Shown here: one piece after another, positions 1,602-7,426 of the stretch
Numbering within the stretch: position 1 is the stretch's first letter
Layout: each line of letters begins with the position of its first letter
NCBI GenBank assembly: GCA_028876655.1
Contig: JAGWRA010000065.1
Location: 1 to 34,275 of the forward strand
Source: Acidobacteriota bacterium
GTDB taxonomy: Bacteria > Acidobacteriota > Vicinamibacteria > Vicinamibacterales > CAVVIG01
DNA length: 34,275 nucleotides
Reading direction: 5' to 3'
Program-made: the position numbers and the translations under genes
The notes under the pieces: model-generated
Seen by the model: the letters and a program-made list of their open reading frames with translations, nothing else
Told to the model about the DNA's origin: nothing
Database searches by the model: none

Positions 1602-1767
1602 GCGGACTCCTCCCGGGCGCGGTCCGCACTGCCGCCGTGCAGCAGGGATGCGCGACCCGGTGCACTACCGCCACTTTGACGGCTGCCGGTCCGCAGGTCA
1701 AGCTCAGGCGGACCCGCGCCGCGCAGCGGCGGGTTCCGCGGGCCCCCGGCCGCCTCGCACGATTGAG

Positions 1768-1780
1768 TACAATACCCGCA
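1768..1780 (+). promoter_or_regulatory. -10 element giving a leaderless transcript for the MqnE-like gene
   Basis: TACAAT at 1768-1773 is followed seven bases later by the A of the ATG at 1780. That is the usual distance from a sigma-70 -10 box to the transcription start. The mRNA would therefore begin at or next to its own start codon. No convincing -35 hexamer and no Shine-Dalgarno sequence is visible. Confidence 0.5.
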
Positions 1781-2658
1781 TGGACGTGCTGGCCGAAATC
1801 GCCCGCCGCGTCGAGGCGGACGAGCGCCTCTCCGACGAGGATGCCTACGAGCTGATGTCGACGCACGACATCGTCGGCCTGGCCGGCCTGGCCGACGAGG
1901 CCCGGCGCCGGCGCCACGGCCGCCGGACGACCTTCGTGCGGGTCCTGGACGTGGGGCTGACCGGACCGCTCCCGGGGGTGGTGTCCGCCGGGGAACTCCG
2001 GCTGTCGGGGACGCCGGCCACGCTGGATTCGGCGATCGCCCGCGTGCGCCAGCTCCGATCGGTGGCGGGCGACGTGCCGGTGTCCGGCTTTGACCTCTCC
2101 GATCTCGACGCGCTCGCGGCTGACGAAGGGCTGCCGCTGCGCACGCTGCTCGAGCGGCTGCAGGAGGCGGGCCTCGAGCTGGTCGCCGAGGCGCCGGTCG
2201 ATGCGCTGGCGGAGCCACGGGCGGCCATCGAAGCGGTCAACATGGCGGGGCTGACCCTGGCGCGCCTCGTGCTGCGGACCGTTCCCCGCGACGGGCTGGT
2301 GCACGTCCTGCGCGACGTCGCCTCGCTCCAGCGGGCCGTGGGTGTCCTGCGGACCTTCCAGCCGCTGCCGCGCCGCCTGCAACCGCAGGCGCCGACGACG
2401 GGGTACGCCGACACCCGTCAGGTTGCGCTGGCGCGGTTGCTGGTCGACAATATCGAGTCGATTCAGGTCGACTGGGGCCTCTACGGGCCGAAGCTCGCGC
2501 AGTTCGCGCTGGCGGCCGGCGCCGACGACGTGGATGGCGTGGCGGCAGGGGCGGGGCCGCGGGGCGGCGACGCGGGCGACGAGGTGCGGCGTCAGATCGC
2601 CGCGGCGGGCCTGGAGCCGCACGAGCGGACCGGCCGCTTCGATGCGGTGCCGGCCTGA
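1780..2658 (+). CDS. MqnE/MqnC-like protein lacking the radical SAM cluster
   Basis: This 292-residue protein resembles aminofutalosine synthase (MqnE) and MqnC at both ends. The N-terminus has the ALELY...LG.LAD..R-type pattern (residues 20-47: DAYELMSTHD, LAGLADEARRR). The C-terminus has VALARLLVDN and GPKLAQFALAAGADDVDG (215-253), the family's end-of-barrel signature. The part that should carry CX3CX2C is missing: HGRRTTFVRVLDV (46-58) runs straight into later barrel elements, and the protein has no cysteine at all. The GGGAE SAM-binding motif of MqnC is also absent. It is about 100 residues shorter than active members. It sits directly before mqnC, where mqnE might be expected. It cannot bind a Cys-ligated 4Fe-4S cluster, so I infer a partner, scaffold or regulatory role. 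The function is unknown. Confidence 0.75.
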   Translation: MDVLAEIARRVEADERLSDEDAYELMSTHDIVGLAGLADEARRRRHGRRTTFVRVLDVGLTGPLPGVVSAGELRLSGTPATLDSAIARVRQLRSVAGDVPVSGFDLSDLDALAADEGLPLRTLLERLQEAGLELVAEAPVDALAEPRAAIEAVNMAGLTLARLVLRTVPRDGLVHVLRDVASLQRAVGVLRTFQPLPRRLQPQAPTTGYADTRQVALARLLVDNIESIQVDWGLYGPKLAQFALAAGADDVDGVAAGAGPRGGDAGDEVRRQIAAAGLEPHERTGRFDAVPA

Positions 2659-2683: not shown

Positions 2684-3904
2684 ATGACAACGATCGACAC
2701 GCTGGCGCAGAAGGTGGAGGCAGGGGAGCGGCTGTCGGGCGCCGAGGCGCTCGAGCTGTACCGGCACGCGCCCCTCCACCGGCTGGGGCGGCTCGCCGAT
2801 CGGGTGCGCGCGCGGAAGCACCCCGAGGGGATCGTCACCTACATCATCGACCGCAACGTCAACTACACCAACGTGTGCGTGGCGAAGTGCAGCTTCTGCG
2901 CCTTCTACCGCGAGGTCGGCGCCGCGGACGGCTACGTGCTCGGGTTCGACGAGATCTTCCGGAAGATCGACGAGACGATTGCCGTGGGCGGCGTGCAGCT
3001 GCTGCTGCAGGGGGGGCACAACCCCGACCTGCCGCTCACCTGGTACGAGGATCTGTTCCGGGCGGTGAAGGAACGCTATCCCGCCTTCAAGCTGCACGCC
3101 CTGTCGCCGCCCGAGGTCATCCACCTGTCGCGCCTCTCGCGCCTGCCGGTTCCGCAGGTGGTCGACCGGCTCGTGGCGGCCGGGCTCGACAGCATTCCCG
3201 GCGGGGGCGCGGAGATCCTCGTGGATCGCGTCCGGAAGCTGCTGCACTGCTACGGCAAAGCGACGGCCGACGAGTGGCTCGGCGTGATGCGGCACGCGCA
3301 CCGCGCCGGCCTGCGGACGACGGCCACGATGATGTACGGGACCGTCGAGACCGACGAGGAGCGGATCGAGCACATGCTGCGGCTCCGCGACCTGCAGGAC
3401 GAGACCGGCGGCTTCACGGCGTTCATCACCTGGAGCTTCCAGCCGTCGCACACCGAGCTGGGCGGCCAGGAGGCCACCGGCGTCGACTACCTGCGGACGC
3501 TGGCCCTCGCGCGACTGGTGCTCGACAACTTCGACAACCTGCAGGCCTCGTGGGTCACGCAGGGCGGGAAGGTCGGCCAGCTGAGCCTGGCCTTCGGCGC
3601 CAACGACATGGGCTCGGTGATGATCGAGGAGAACGTCGTGCGAGCCGCCGGTGCCGCGTACTGCATGGACGAGGTCGAGATCGTCCGGAACATCGAGGAT
3701 GCCGGCTTCGTGCCGCGCCGCCGCACCATGCACTACGAACTGCTCGGCGGCCCCGTGTTCCGCGAGCGCGACGTGCCGCGCATGCTGAACCTGGCGCAGG
3801 CGCGCCGCGAGGGCGATCGATCCGTGCCGGCCGAGCTCGTCAACTATCCCGCGCGCAGCCGGGCCGGCCGGCAGCAGCGCGAGGGCCAGCGGTCGGATGC
3901 CTGA
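2684..3904 (+). CDS. mqnC: Cyclic dehypoxanthinyl futalosine synthase
   Basis: This radical SAM enzyme of the futalosine menaquinone pathway cyclises dehypoxanthine futalosine to the spiro compound cyclic DHFL. The 406-residue protein carries the cluster motif CVAKCSFC (Cys65, Cys69, Cys72), then LLLQGGHNPDL (typical of MqnC rather than MqnE), PGGGAE, a conserved TATMMYGTVET stretch and GKVGQLSLAFGANDMGS near the C-terminus. The start is ATG 2684, 25 bases after the MqnE-like gene, with a modest GGAGCAGG before it. The length fits the family (about 370-400). It is probably transcribed with its upstream neighbour. Confidence 0.92.
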   Translation: MTTIDTLAQKVEAGERLSGAEALELYRHAPLHRLGRLADRVRARKHPEGIVTYIIDRNVNYTNVCVAKCSFCAFYREVGAADGYVLGFDEIFRKIDETIAVGGVQLLLQGGHNPDLPLTWYEDLFRAVKERYPAFKLHALSPPEVIHLSRLSRLPVPQVVDRLVAAGLDSIPGGGAEILVDRVRKLLHCYGKATADEWLGVMRHAHRAGLRTTATMMYGTVETDEERIEHMLRLRDLQDETGGFTAFITWSFQPSHTELGGQEATGVDYLRTLALARLVLDNFDNLQASWVTQGGKVGQLSLAFGANDMGSVMIEENVVRAAGAAYCMDEVEIVRNIEDAGFVPRRRTMHYELLGGPVFRERDVPRMLNLAQARREGDRSVPAELVNYPARSRAGRQQREGQRSDA

Positions 3905-3931: not shown

Positions 3932-5176
3932 TTGATCAAGTACCGCGCGTCCTGGATCCTGCCGATCGCCGACCCGCCGCTCCGCGACGGGTGGGTGGTG
4001 ACCGATCGCGGCCGGATCGTGGCGTGCGGCCACCGTGCCGGCGACCCGGAGCCGCCCGGGATCACCCGCGAGGTCGATCTCGGCACCGCCGTCATCCTGC
4101 CCGGCCTGGTCAACGCGCACACCCACCTCGAGCTGTCGTACCTGCGCGGGACCATCGCCCCCCGCACGGCGTTCGTGCCCTGGGTACGCGACGTCATCCG
4201 CGCGCAGCGCGAGCGGAGCGACCCGCGCGCCCCGGGCATCCTGGCCGCCATGTCCGATGCCATCGTCGAGGCACAGCGGACCGGGACGGTGGCTGTCGGC
4301 GACATCAGCAACACGCTGGCCGGCTTCGACCGCCTCGCCGCCAGCGGCCTGCGGGGTGTCGTCTTTCGCGAGCTGATCGGATTCCACCCGGCCGATCCCG
4401 AGGCGCTCGTCCGAGAGACCTGCGACGCGATCGACGCGTGCGACCGGACGGCGCCCGTGCGCATGAGCCTGGCGGCGCACGCCCCCTACTCGGTGTCGCC
4501 GCTGCTGTTCCGGGCGATCCGGCAGGCGATCGACCGGCGTCCGTTCGTGCCGGGCAGCGTGCACGTGGCCGAGTCGCCCGAGGAGGTCGAGTTCGTCCGG
4601 ACCGGCCGGGGCCCCTGGCGCGTGCTGCTCGAGGAGATCGGCGCCTGGGATCCCGACTGGGTGGCGCCCGGCGTGACGCCGGTCGCGTACCTGGCCGATG
4701 CGGGCTTCCTCGATCAGCGCGTCCTCGCCGTGCACGCCGTGCAGGCCGGCCGCGGCGATCTGGACCGATTGGCGGCGCGCGGTGTGACCATCGTCACCTG
4801 CCCGCGCAGCAACCGGTACACCGGCGTCGGGAACCCGCCGGTCGCGGCCTTCTATGCGTCGGGCGCGCGCGTGGCGATCGGCACCGACAGCCTGGCCAGC
4901 GCGCCGGATCTGAACCTGTTCGAGGAACTGGCGGCGCTGCGGCAGCTCGCGCCCGGCGTGCCGGCCCGCGCGCTGCTCGACAGCGCGACGCGGCAGGGGG
5001 CTCGCGCGCTGGGGTTCGAGGCCGAACTGGGTGCGATCGTCCCCGGGCGGGCCGACGCCCTGATTGCCGTGCGCATTCCGCCCGGCACGACGGATGTGGA
5101 AGAATATCTGGTGCACGGGGTCCGCGCCGACCAGATCGTGCGGCTGGAGGCGGGCGCCGGAGAGGTGGAGGCGTAG
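3932..5176 (+). CDS. mqnX: Amidohydrolase, probable aminodeoxyfutalosine deaminase
   Basis: This 414-residue metal-dependent amidohydrolase belongs to the cytosine/guanine deaminase type (COG0402). Metal and catalytic residues are visible: His63 and His65 in NAHTHLELS, His183 in HAPYS, His211 in HVAESPEE, His268, and Asp319 in GTDSLAS. Some members of this family deaminate 6-amino-6-deoxyfutalosine to futalosine. The position between mqnC and the UbiA prenyltransferase makes that the best assignment, although the fold alone could serve other aminopurines. The start appears to be TTG 3932; no ATG or GTG fits better near the family's N-terminus. It abuts the next gene with no gap. Confidence 0.75.
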   Translation: MIKYRASWILPIADPPLRDGWVVTDRGRIVACGHRAGDPEPPGITREVDLGTAVILPGLVNAHTHLELSYLRGTIAPRTAFVPWVRDVIRAQRERSDPRAPGILAAMSDAIVEAQRTGTVAVGDISNTLAGFDRLAASGLRGVVFRELIGFHPADPEALVRETCDAIDACDRTAPVRMSLAAHAPYSVSPLLFRAIRQAIDRRPFVPGSVHVAESPEEVEFVRTGRGPWRVLLEEIGAWDPDWVAPGVTPVAYLADAGFLDQRVLAVHAVQAGRGDLDRLAARGVTIVTCPRSNRYTGVGNPPVAAFYASGARVAIGTDSLASAPDLNLFEELAALRQLAPGVPARALLDSATRQGARALGFEAELGAIVPGRADALIAVRIPPGTTDVEEYLVHGVRADQIVRLEAGAGEVEA

Positions 5177-6085
5177 GTGGCAGAGCAGGATGTGATCCCG
5201 CAGCCGGGCTCGATGGGCGGGCCGCTGCCGGCGGCGGCCGGCCGGTTGCGGACGTACGCCTCGTTCGTCCGGTTCAGCCACTCCGTCTTCGCGTTGCCGT
5301 TCGCCCTGACCGGTGCCCTGCTCGCCTCGCGGCACCATCCGGTCACCATCGGCACCCTCGTCTGGATCCTCGTGGCGATGGTGGCGGCGCGCAGCGCCGC
5401 GATGGGATTCAACCGGCTGGCCGACGCCCGGTGGGACGCGATGAACCCGCGCACGGCGATGCGCGAGCTGCCGCGGGGTGCGATGTCGCGGCGCGAGGCC
5501 ACGATCTTCGTCGTCGCGGCCTGCACGGTCTTCATCGGCGCCGCGTACCTGCTCAATCCGATCTGCTTCGCGCTGTCGCCGGTGGCGCTGGGCATCGTCT
5601 TCTGGTACTCGCTGGCCAAGCGTTACACGACCTGGACGCAGCTCTTCCTCGGCCTGGCGATGGCCGTGGCGCCGGTCGGCGGGTGGCTCGCGGTCGGCGG
5701 GCGCGGCGGCTGGGAGCCCTGGCTGCTCGGCCTCGCCATCGGCACCTGGGTGGGCGGCTTCGACATCCTCTATGCCTGCCAGGACCTGTCGTTCGACCGG
5801 GCGCACGGGCTGCGATCGATTCCCGTGCGCTTCGGCGTGCCGGCGTCGCTCTGGATGTCCCGTGCGCTCCACGTCGTCGCGGTTGCGTGCCTGGCCGGGC
5901 TGGCGTGGATCGCCCCGATGGGGCCGCTCTACCTGCCGGGCGTCGCGCTGGTCGCGGCGCTGCTGGTCTACGAGCAGTCGCTGGTGTGCGCCGACGACCT
6001 CTCACGGGTGAAGCAGGCGTTCGATCTGAACGGGTACGTCGGCATCCTGTACCTGATCGTGACCGCGGTGTCGCTGTATGTCTGA
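5177..6085 (+). CDS. mqnP: UbiA-family prenyltransferase of menaquinone synthesis
   Basis: This integral membrane enzyme attaches a polyprenyl chain to the aromatic acid of the pathway. The 302-residue protein has the first Asp-rich motif NRLADARWDAMNPRT, the second motif DLSFDRAHGLRSIPVRFG, and about eight or nine hydrophobic segments. The start is GTG 5177, directly after the deaminase stop, with GGAGG five bases upstream inside the previous gene. In a futalosine cluster next to ubiX, the substrate is probably 1,4-dihydroxy-6-naphthoate (MqnP) rather than 4-hydroxybenzoate. This is inferred from context. Confidence 0.85.
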   Translation: MAEQDVIPQPGSMGGPLPAAAGRLRTYASFVRFSHSVFALPFALTGALLASRHHPVTIGTLVWILVAMVAARSAAMGFNRLADARWDAMNPRTAMRELPRGAMSRREATIFVVAACTVFIGAAYLLNPICFALSPVALGIVFWYSLAKRYTTWTQLFLGLAMAVAPVGGWLAVGGRGGWEPWLLGLAIGTWVGGFDILYACQDLSFDRAHGLRSIPVRFGVPASLWMSRALHVVAVACLAGLAWIAPMGPLYLPGVALVAALLVYEQSLVCADDLSRVKQAFDLNGYVGILYLIVTAVSLYV

Positions 6086-6692
6086 GGCCCCGGGCATCGT
6101 CGTGGCGATCACGGGCGCCAGTGGCGCACTGTACGCGGTCCGCACGCTGGCGGCCCTCCTGGCCGAAGGCTGCCGGGTCGAGCTGGTCGTCAGCGACTTC
6201 GGCCGGCGTCTGCTGCGCGACGAGCTCGGCGAGGAGGCGGCCGTCGACCGGCTGGGCGCCTGGCTGGAAGGGAAGTACGGCGAGGCGGTCCGGCGCGGCA
6301 CGCTGCAGGTCTACAGCAACCGGGATCTCGGCGCGCCGATCGCCAGCGGCAGCCACGGCAGCCGCGGGATGGCGATCGTGCCGTGCTCGATGAAGACGCT
6401 GGCCGGCGTCGCCAACGGACTGTCGCGCAGCCTGGTCGAACGGGCCGCCGACGTCATGTTGAAGGAGCAGCGGCGGCTGGTCATCGTCCCGCGCGAGACC
6501 CCGATGAGCCTGCCGCAGCTGCGGAACCTGGTCCTGTGCGCCGAAGCCGGCGCGATGGTGCTGCCGGCCATGCCCGCCTTCTACCAGCAGCCGAAATCGC
6601 TGGACGACCTGGCCGATTTCATGGCGGGGAAGATCCTGAGCGCCCTCGGCTTCGATCACGCGCTCTACCCGATGTGGACGGGATCGGTCTGA
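6078..6692 (+). CDS. ubiX: UbiX flavin prenyltransferase
   Basis: UbiX makes prenylated FMN, the cofactor of UbiD-type decarboxylases. In the futalosine route a UbiD homologue removes the carboxylate after prenylation. The 204-residue protein shows the N-terminal flavin site ITGASGALYAV, then SHGSRGMAIVPCSMKTLAGVA and PRETPMS, all typical of UbiX. The ATG at 6078 overlaps the prenyltransferase stop by 8 bases. No ubiD homologue lies in the window, so the decarboxylase must be elsewhere. Confidence 0.9.
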   Translation: MSEAPGIVVAITGASGALYAVRTLAALLAEGCRVELVVSDFGRRLLRDELGEEAAVDRLGAWLEGKYGEAVRRGTLQVYSNRDLGAPIASGSHGSRGMAIVPCSMKTLAGVANGLSRSLVERAADVMLKEQRRLVIVPRETPMSLPQLRNLVLCAEAGAMVLPAMPAFYQQPKSLDDLADFMAGKILSALGFDHALYPMWTGSV

Positions 6693-6700
6693 CCTCTCGC

Positions 6701-7426
6701 ATGGAACTCGACGATCGGCTGCGCGCCAAGGACCCCGCCCGCATCGCGGGGATGTTCGACGCGATCGCCTCCCGCTACGATCTCCTGAATCACCTGCTCA
6801 GTGCCGGCATCGATCGCTACTGGCGGGCGCGGGCGATCCGCGCGCTCCGCCTGACGGGGCGCGAGGCGCTGCTCGACCTGTGTACGGGGACGGCCGACCT
6901 CGCCATGGCGGCGGCCCGTCCCGGCCGGGCGGCCCGCGTCGTCGGCCTCGACTTCGCCGCGGCCATGCTGGACATCGGCCGCCAGAAGGTCGCCCGGGCC
7001 GGCCTGGCGCGCGTCGTCCATCTGGTGCGCGGCGACGCGATGGTGCTCCCGCTGCCCGACCGATCCGTTGATGCCGTGACGATCGCCTTCGGCATCCGGA
7101 ACGTTGCCGATCCGCTGAAGGCCGGCCGCGACATCCGCCGTGTGCTGCGCCCGGGCGGGCGCCTGGCCATCCTGGAGTTCGGCCTGCCGCCGAGCCGGCT
7201 CGTCCGGGCCGTCTATCTGTGGTACTTCCGGCACGTGCTGCCGCTCATCGGCCGGCTGGTGTCGCGCCACTCGCTCGCCTACAGCTACCTGCCGGCCTCG
7301 GTCGGCACCTTCCCGCCCCCGGACGAATTCGCCGGCCTGCTCCGGACCGCCGGGTTCAGTGACGTCCGCGCCACCCCGCTGACCTTCGGCATCGTCTATC
7401 TGTACGAAGGGACGGCCGCGTCGTAA
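6701..7426 (+). CDS. menG: Demethylmenaquinone methyltransferase (UbiE/MenG family)
   Basis: This enzyme catalyses the last step of menaquinone synthesis, SAM-dependent C-methylation of the demethylated quinone. The 241-residue protein begins MELDDRLRAKDPARIAGMFD. It contains the UbiE signatures ASRYDLLNHLLSAGIDRYWR, LLDLCTGTADLA (SAM motif I), AFGIRNVADP and SYLPASVGTFPPPDEF. The start is ATG 6701, 8 bases after ubiX. It closes the menaquinone gene block; a promoter for the next unit follows at about 7593. Confidence 0.92.
   Translation: MELDDRLRAKDPARIAGMFDAIASRYDLLNHLLSAGIDRYWRARAIRALRLTGREALLDLCTGTADLAMAAARPGRAARVVGLDFAAAMLDIGRQKVARAGLARVVHLVRGDAMVLPLPDRSVDAVTIAFGIRNVADPLKAGRDIRRVLRPGGRLAILEFGLPPSRLVRAVYLWYFRHVLPLIGRLVSRHSLAYSYLPASVGTFPPPDEFAGLLRTAGFSDVRATPLTFGIVYLYEGTAAS

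Follow-up and report, generated by a model that had tools for sequence, protein, structure and literature searches.

A cysteine-free putative pseudoenzyme of the MqnE family in the menaquinone operon of the Vicinamibacterales

Gene content of the locus

The window (the whole 34,275-nt stretch of DNA that was analyzed) contained a set of plus-strand genes associated with menaquinone (vitamin K2) synthesis by the futalosine pathway, which is used by acidobacteria (PMC3914697). The gene of interest, here called X, was an intact ORF with an ATG start that encodes a protein without a single cysteine. The features considered were as follows.

1768 to 1773, plus strand: TACAAT, a -10-like hexamer 6 nt upstream of the ATG of X (not conserved)
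1780 to 2658, plus strand: X, cysteine-free MqnE-like putative pseudoenzyme, 292 amino acids (profile matches, alignment with MqnC, predicted fold)
2684 to 3904, plus strand: mqnC, cyclic dehypoxanthinyl futalosine synthase with the canonical Cys motif (487.6 bits versus a cut-off of 428.1 bits)
3932 to 5176, plus strand: mqnX candidate, amidohydrolase of the aminofutalosine deaminase type (under the curated cut-off)
5177 to 6085, plus strand: mqnP candidate, UbiA-like polyprenyltransferase
6078 to 6692, plus strand: UbiX-family flavin prenyltransferase
6707 to 7426 (start approximate), plus strand: MenG/UbiE-type quinone methyltransferase

The stop codon of X and the start of mqnC (position 2684) were separated by 25 nt. 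A preliminary description of this DNA had assigned X its own leaderless promoter. The hexamer is present in the window, but a comparable motif preceded X in only 2 of 79 orthologues, was absent in the sister species, and occurred before approximately 1% of ATGs in related loci; a leaderless promoter for X is possible and weakly supported by the sequence. The divergent neighbor on the minus strand (204 to 1601) read like a cyclopropane-fatty-acid synthase-type methyltransferase, and the sister species had a similar methyltransferase-like gene next to X (L199:8577-9917). The viral collection contained no relative of the window's MqnC.

In profile searches, X matched TIGR03700 (MqnE) with 79.8 bits (E = 1.8e-22), below the curated cut-off of 434.55 bits, and TIGR03699 (MqnC) with E = 6.1e-21, far under the cut-off of that model. 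The match to TIGR03551 (CofH) was weaker (40.3 bits), and the Pfam family CofH_C (PF19288) was matched above its cut-off (32.5 versus 27 bits). Alignment with the neighboring MqnC gave 27% identity end to end (E = 7e-16), with the Cys loop as a gap. These scores place the homology of X to the MqnE/MqnC/CofH family far above what chance would produce. The Radical_SAM profile (PF04055) did not match X.

The alignments indicated deletion of the TNVCxxxCxxC loop, the GGLHP segment, the PGGGAEIF segment, and adjoining parts, with a gap and substitution at PGGGAEIF, the SAM-binding GGGAE-type segment that follows strand 4. What remained comprised the N-terminal helices, the strands of the barrel, and the C-terminal half with the CofH_C region. 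Profiles and alignment thus agreed with the preliminary description, in which MqnE/MqnC-type N- and C-terminal parts were kept and the CX3CX2C region was gone. The cluster is the defining feature of the very large radical SAM superfamily, and the reaction known for MqnE begins from a 5'-deoxyadenosyl radical. Because X contains neither CX3CX2C nor the SAM segments, it should be unable to catalyze this reaction by the known route. Judged in this manner, X falls outside the definition of the MqnE family and is a putative lineage-specific pseudoenzyme of the MqnE/CofH family.

Distribution, conservation, and origin of X

X orthologues were present in most of the 60 relatives searched and in 80 listed loci, of 209 confirmed places, in the GTDB collection; 79 orthologues were compared. 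Among 396 genomes sampled across the phylum, strong X scores were confined to the window's order, Vicinamibacterales; matches outside the order were MqnE proteins (about 93 to 105 bits) of normal length except for one short frame. Genomes of the order that lacked the pathway also lacked X, and no genome of the order was found with a fully assembled mqnA-mqnC operon but no X (in an apparent exception, G002, the contig end falls inside mqnA). Five genomes of the same order that were at least 91% complete (G036, G046, G056, G433, and G052) had no mqnE or mqnC match at an E value of 1e-20, and mqnA and mqnD were likewise missing in the three of these that were tested, which suggests that the futalosine pathway was lost in some lineages of the order.

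X was immediately upstream of mqnA in 75 of the 79 loci, with a 4-nt overlap in 40, and the usual gene order was X-mqnA-mqnC-mqnX-mqnP (UbiA type)-ubiX, often with ubiD upstream. The adjacency of X and mqnC noted in the preliminary description therefore holds in the window, but across the order X is normally coupled to mqnA rather than to mqnC. Three genomes of the same class outside the order (G264, G376, and G121) carried a canonical mqnE with the Cys motif in the arrangement mqnE-mqnA-mqnC, so that the slot of X is the ancestral place of mqnE, as its description as a gene at the mqnE position had implied. Canonical mqnE with CX3CX2C was located at a separate locus in all 20 relatives that were fetched, within the context yjbQ-like-mqnE-nadA-sod in the family members compared, and was found above the cut-off in 92 of 106 genomes of the order that were at least 90% complete.

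The CX3CX2C motif occurred in none of the 79 X orthologues, which were 263 to 318 amino acids in length with intact frames; all 79 matched CofH_C (E ≤ 0.01), and none matched PF04055. Together with the absence of cysteine, this bears out the earlier statement that excluded X as a normal radical SAM enzyme. GC contents by codon position were of the coding type (0.84/0.50/0.92 in X and 0.72/0.44/0.95 in mqnC). The dN/dS ratio of X in close pairs was 0.11 to 0.32, similar to the range of mqnA in the pairs compared (0.07 to 0.34), and 55 alignment columns were at least 90% conserved, 50 of which were kept in the window. Residues R43, V55, R74, P197, P205, D231, and V254 were near-invariant in X and absent from MqnE, and charged conserved residues were found at strand ends (e.g., R74, D231, D250, D252, R261, and R262). 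X diverged much faster than MqnC, with median pairwise differences of 0.54 and 0.24, respectively. Its pairwise distances were correlated with the MqnA and MqnX distances (partial r, 0.40 and 0.42, respectively), which may be explained by the fast evolution of all three proteins. The preliminary description had argued for selection rather than decay and had named an intact CX3CX2C in relatives or neutral codon-level decay as findings that would count against its reading; both came out negative. Frame, composition, dN/dS, and order-wide conservation indicate that X is maintained by purifying selection and is not the product of an error or of gene decay.

An AlphaFold2 model of X, computed from an alignment of the 79 family members, had a mean pLDDT of 96.2, a pTM of 0.92, and eight predicted barrel strands. 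The top four Foldseek matches in the PDB were Pedobacter heparinus MqnE chains (6xig/6xi9; TM, 0.82; best E value, 2.5e-18), followed by biotin synthase, PylB, and HydE (TM, about 0.6 to 0.67). Structure prediction against MqnE, which had been proposed as a check, thus returned an MqnE-type barrel, and by this model X is predicted to be an MqnE barrel minus the radical SAM apparatus. When mapped on the predicted secondary structure, conserved positions made up 19% of the barrel mouth and the same share of the helices; the mapping did not tell a scaffold from an active site.

In a phylogenetic tree without X, mqnE of the order was sister to mqnE of the class (support, 94), as expected for vertical descent. 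X formed a single clade (support, 100) with a long stem, which makes long branches meet, so that the tree does not fix its branching point and its placement was not used as evidence. At G77, G208, D211, P237, and K238, X kept the class or phylum MqnE residue that was changed in the relocated mqnE of the order. The X family appears to have one origin, in a single order, in the slot before mqnA. Most simply, mqnE would have been duplicated in the ancestor of the order; the copy now beside nadA would have stayed catalytic, and the operon copy would have shed the loop with CX3CX2C and the segments that bind SAM, retained the barrel and the CofH_C half, and become fixed as a radical SAM pseudoenzyme.

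Changes in the genus of the window

Neither the genome of the window (G000) nor the sister genome (G001) had mqnA between X and mqnC. The mqnA-family gene of G000 lay elsewhere (L196 [G000:C44], 1628 to 2431, minus strand), adjoined unrelated genes, and was clearly unlike operon mqnA in sequence, with its product of the LGHILYSNCFPVHAG type versus the LGAVGYLNARPLVYG type in the operon mqnA of relatives; it is possibly a horizontal replacement. G001 had two members of the mqnA Pfam family. The search for a canonical mqnE elsewhere, which succeeded in most relatives, did not find one in G000 (97% complete) or G001 (82% complete). An mqnA-family gene, mqnC, mqnX, mqnP, and mqnD were kept in the genus.

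The old mqnE locus of G000 (L195, G000:C70, 9205 to 12421) was gap-free and contained permease and ABC genes, a cobalamin riboswitch, nadA, and sod; tblastn searches of this locus for mqnE, yjbQ, and btuB gave no match. As the locus was assembled without mqnE, the loss from it is real and not an assembly gap. The riboswitch (RF00174; L195:10132-10305, minus strand) was between the ABC gene and nadA. A copy of mqnE acquired elsewhere could be absent from the 97% complete draft, and about 5 of 101 pathway-bearing genomes that were at least 90% complete had no clear mqnE match, so that absence alone is weak evidence.

Futalosine hydrolase (MqnB; TIGR03664) had no match above the cut-off in G000, a result that neither proves nor excludes X as a replacement of MqnB. 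Two weak matches to TIGR03664 were found at contig ends (L197, 2214 to 2702, and L198, 1436 to 1729); judging from a neighboring hopanoid gene, they look like two pieces of one hopanoid-type nucleosidase split by assembly.

The dN/dS of X in the window's genus was 0.38, compared to 0.13 to 0.29 in the other pairs examined alongside it (up to 0.32 in the close pairs above), and that of mqnC was unchanged at 0.15. R262, an otherwise invariant arginine, was replaced in X of this genus. These values point to mildly relaxed constraint on X. In this genus X would either serve a replacement enzyme, for which no candidate was found, or keep a residual role. The loss of mqnE in this genus points to a missing or replaced pathway step.

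Possible roles of X and comparison with known systems

X is real and lineage-specific, and it probably does a different, nonradical job in menaquinone synthesis. X is retained with MqnA, is homologous to the enzyme acting on the MqnA product, and shows the distance correlations described above; together, these observations suggest that it may serve as a partner or ligand binder around the MqnA-MqnE-MqnX steps. The specific proposal that X is a radical SAM pseudoenzyme from the operon mqnE, acting as a noncatalytic partner or ligand binder at the MqnA-MqnE step, is given about an even chance. X would be coproduced with MqnA, often by translational coupling, and would bind the MqnA product 3-[(1-carboxyvinyl)oxy]benzoate or aminofutalosine; it may hand the intermediate between MqnA, MqnE, and the deaminase or hold these enzymes together. 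The conserved residues of X were not concentrated on helices, as might be expected of a pure scaffold, nor at the barrel mouth, and a genus with X but neither operon mqnA nor detectable mqnE fits poorly with a strict helper of MqnA and MqnE.

Because some invariant residues are peculiar to X, the chief alternative is a barrel derived from MqnE and repurposed as a cofactor-free enzyme or ligand sensor for another reaction or for regulation within the pathway. This explanation, less probable than the partner model, would account for the near-invariant X-only residues, for conservation that reaches charged residues at strand ends, for a dN/dS close to the values of mqnA, which encodes an enzyme, and for the one step left without an assigned gene in G000, where no futalosine hydrolase exceeded the cut-off; it is weakened by the lack of enrichment of conservation at the barrel mouth and by the presence of candidate genes for the remaining mqn steps expected in the operon. 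A bolder reading, in which the futalosine pathway requires X as a subunit or uses it as a cofactor-free enzyme and a variant pathway in the window's genus makes aminofutalosine or an equivalent without canonical MqnE, is improbable. Participation of X in replacing the MqnE reaction in that genus, e.g., with another protein, is more doubtful still: G000 and G001 lack canonical mqnE while keeping other mqn genes and the old locus is assembled without it, but X has neither cluster nor SAM site for a reaction that needs the radical, and a horizontally gained mqnE could have escaped both drafts.

Descent into a decaying remnant of mqnE that survives only through translational coupling to mqnA is unlikely, if marginally less so than the variant pathway. 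The faster evolution of X relative to MqnC and, in the window's genus, its raised dN/dS and replaced R262 are what such decay would produce; order-wide retention of intact frames under constraint, 50 of the 55 conserved columns in the window, and persistence of X where mqnA no longer lies downstream oppose it. The window derives from a draft assembly of 281 contigs, and a sequencing or assembly error in a normal mqnE was also considered; with the same Cys-loop deletion in 79 of 79 orthologues from independent assemblies and X of the sister species matching at 62 to 64%, this explanation is regarded as refuted.

X makes the handover of futalosine-pathway intermediates a testable question. It is also a clear natural example of how an enzyme of vitamin K2 synthesis can become a pseudoenzyme: cluster and SAM site have both been discarded, yet the protein is conserved throughout an order where the operon once held the active enzyme. 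Annotation by gene position would mislabel X as mqnE. A partial literature search found no description of X or of any radical SAM pseudoenzyme of the futalosine pathway, and novelty is accordingly unproven.

Among known systems, X is most like MqnE (TIGR03700; 6xig/6xi9), with which it shares the fold, the N-terminal helices, CofH_C, the slot before mqnA-mqnC, and the conserved residues R219, W232, Q241, D250, D252, and R283; unlike MqnE, it has neither CX3CX2C nor the GGGAE-type segment and is about 80 residues shorter. MqnC (TIGR03699) belongs to the same superfamily and operon and is 27% identical over the retained parts, but it is a complete radical SAM enzyme, and X is nearer to MqnE by fold and gene slot. 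CofH of F420 biosynthesis has CofH_C (PF19288) in common with X, but its pathway is different and the match is weaker. The way of working proposed for X, that of a dead paralogue partnering an active enzyme, is the one known from pseudoenzymes generally.
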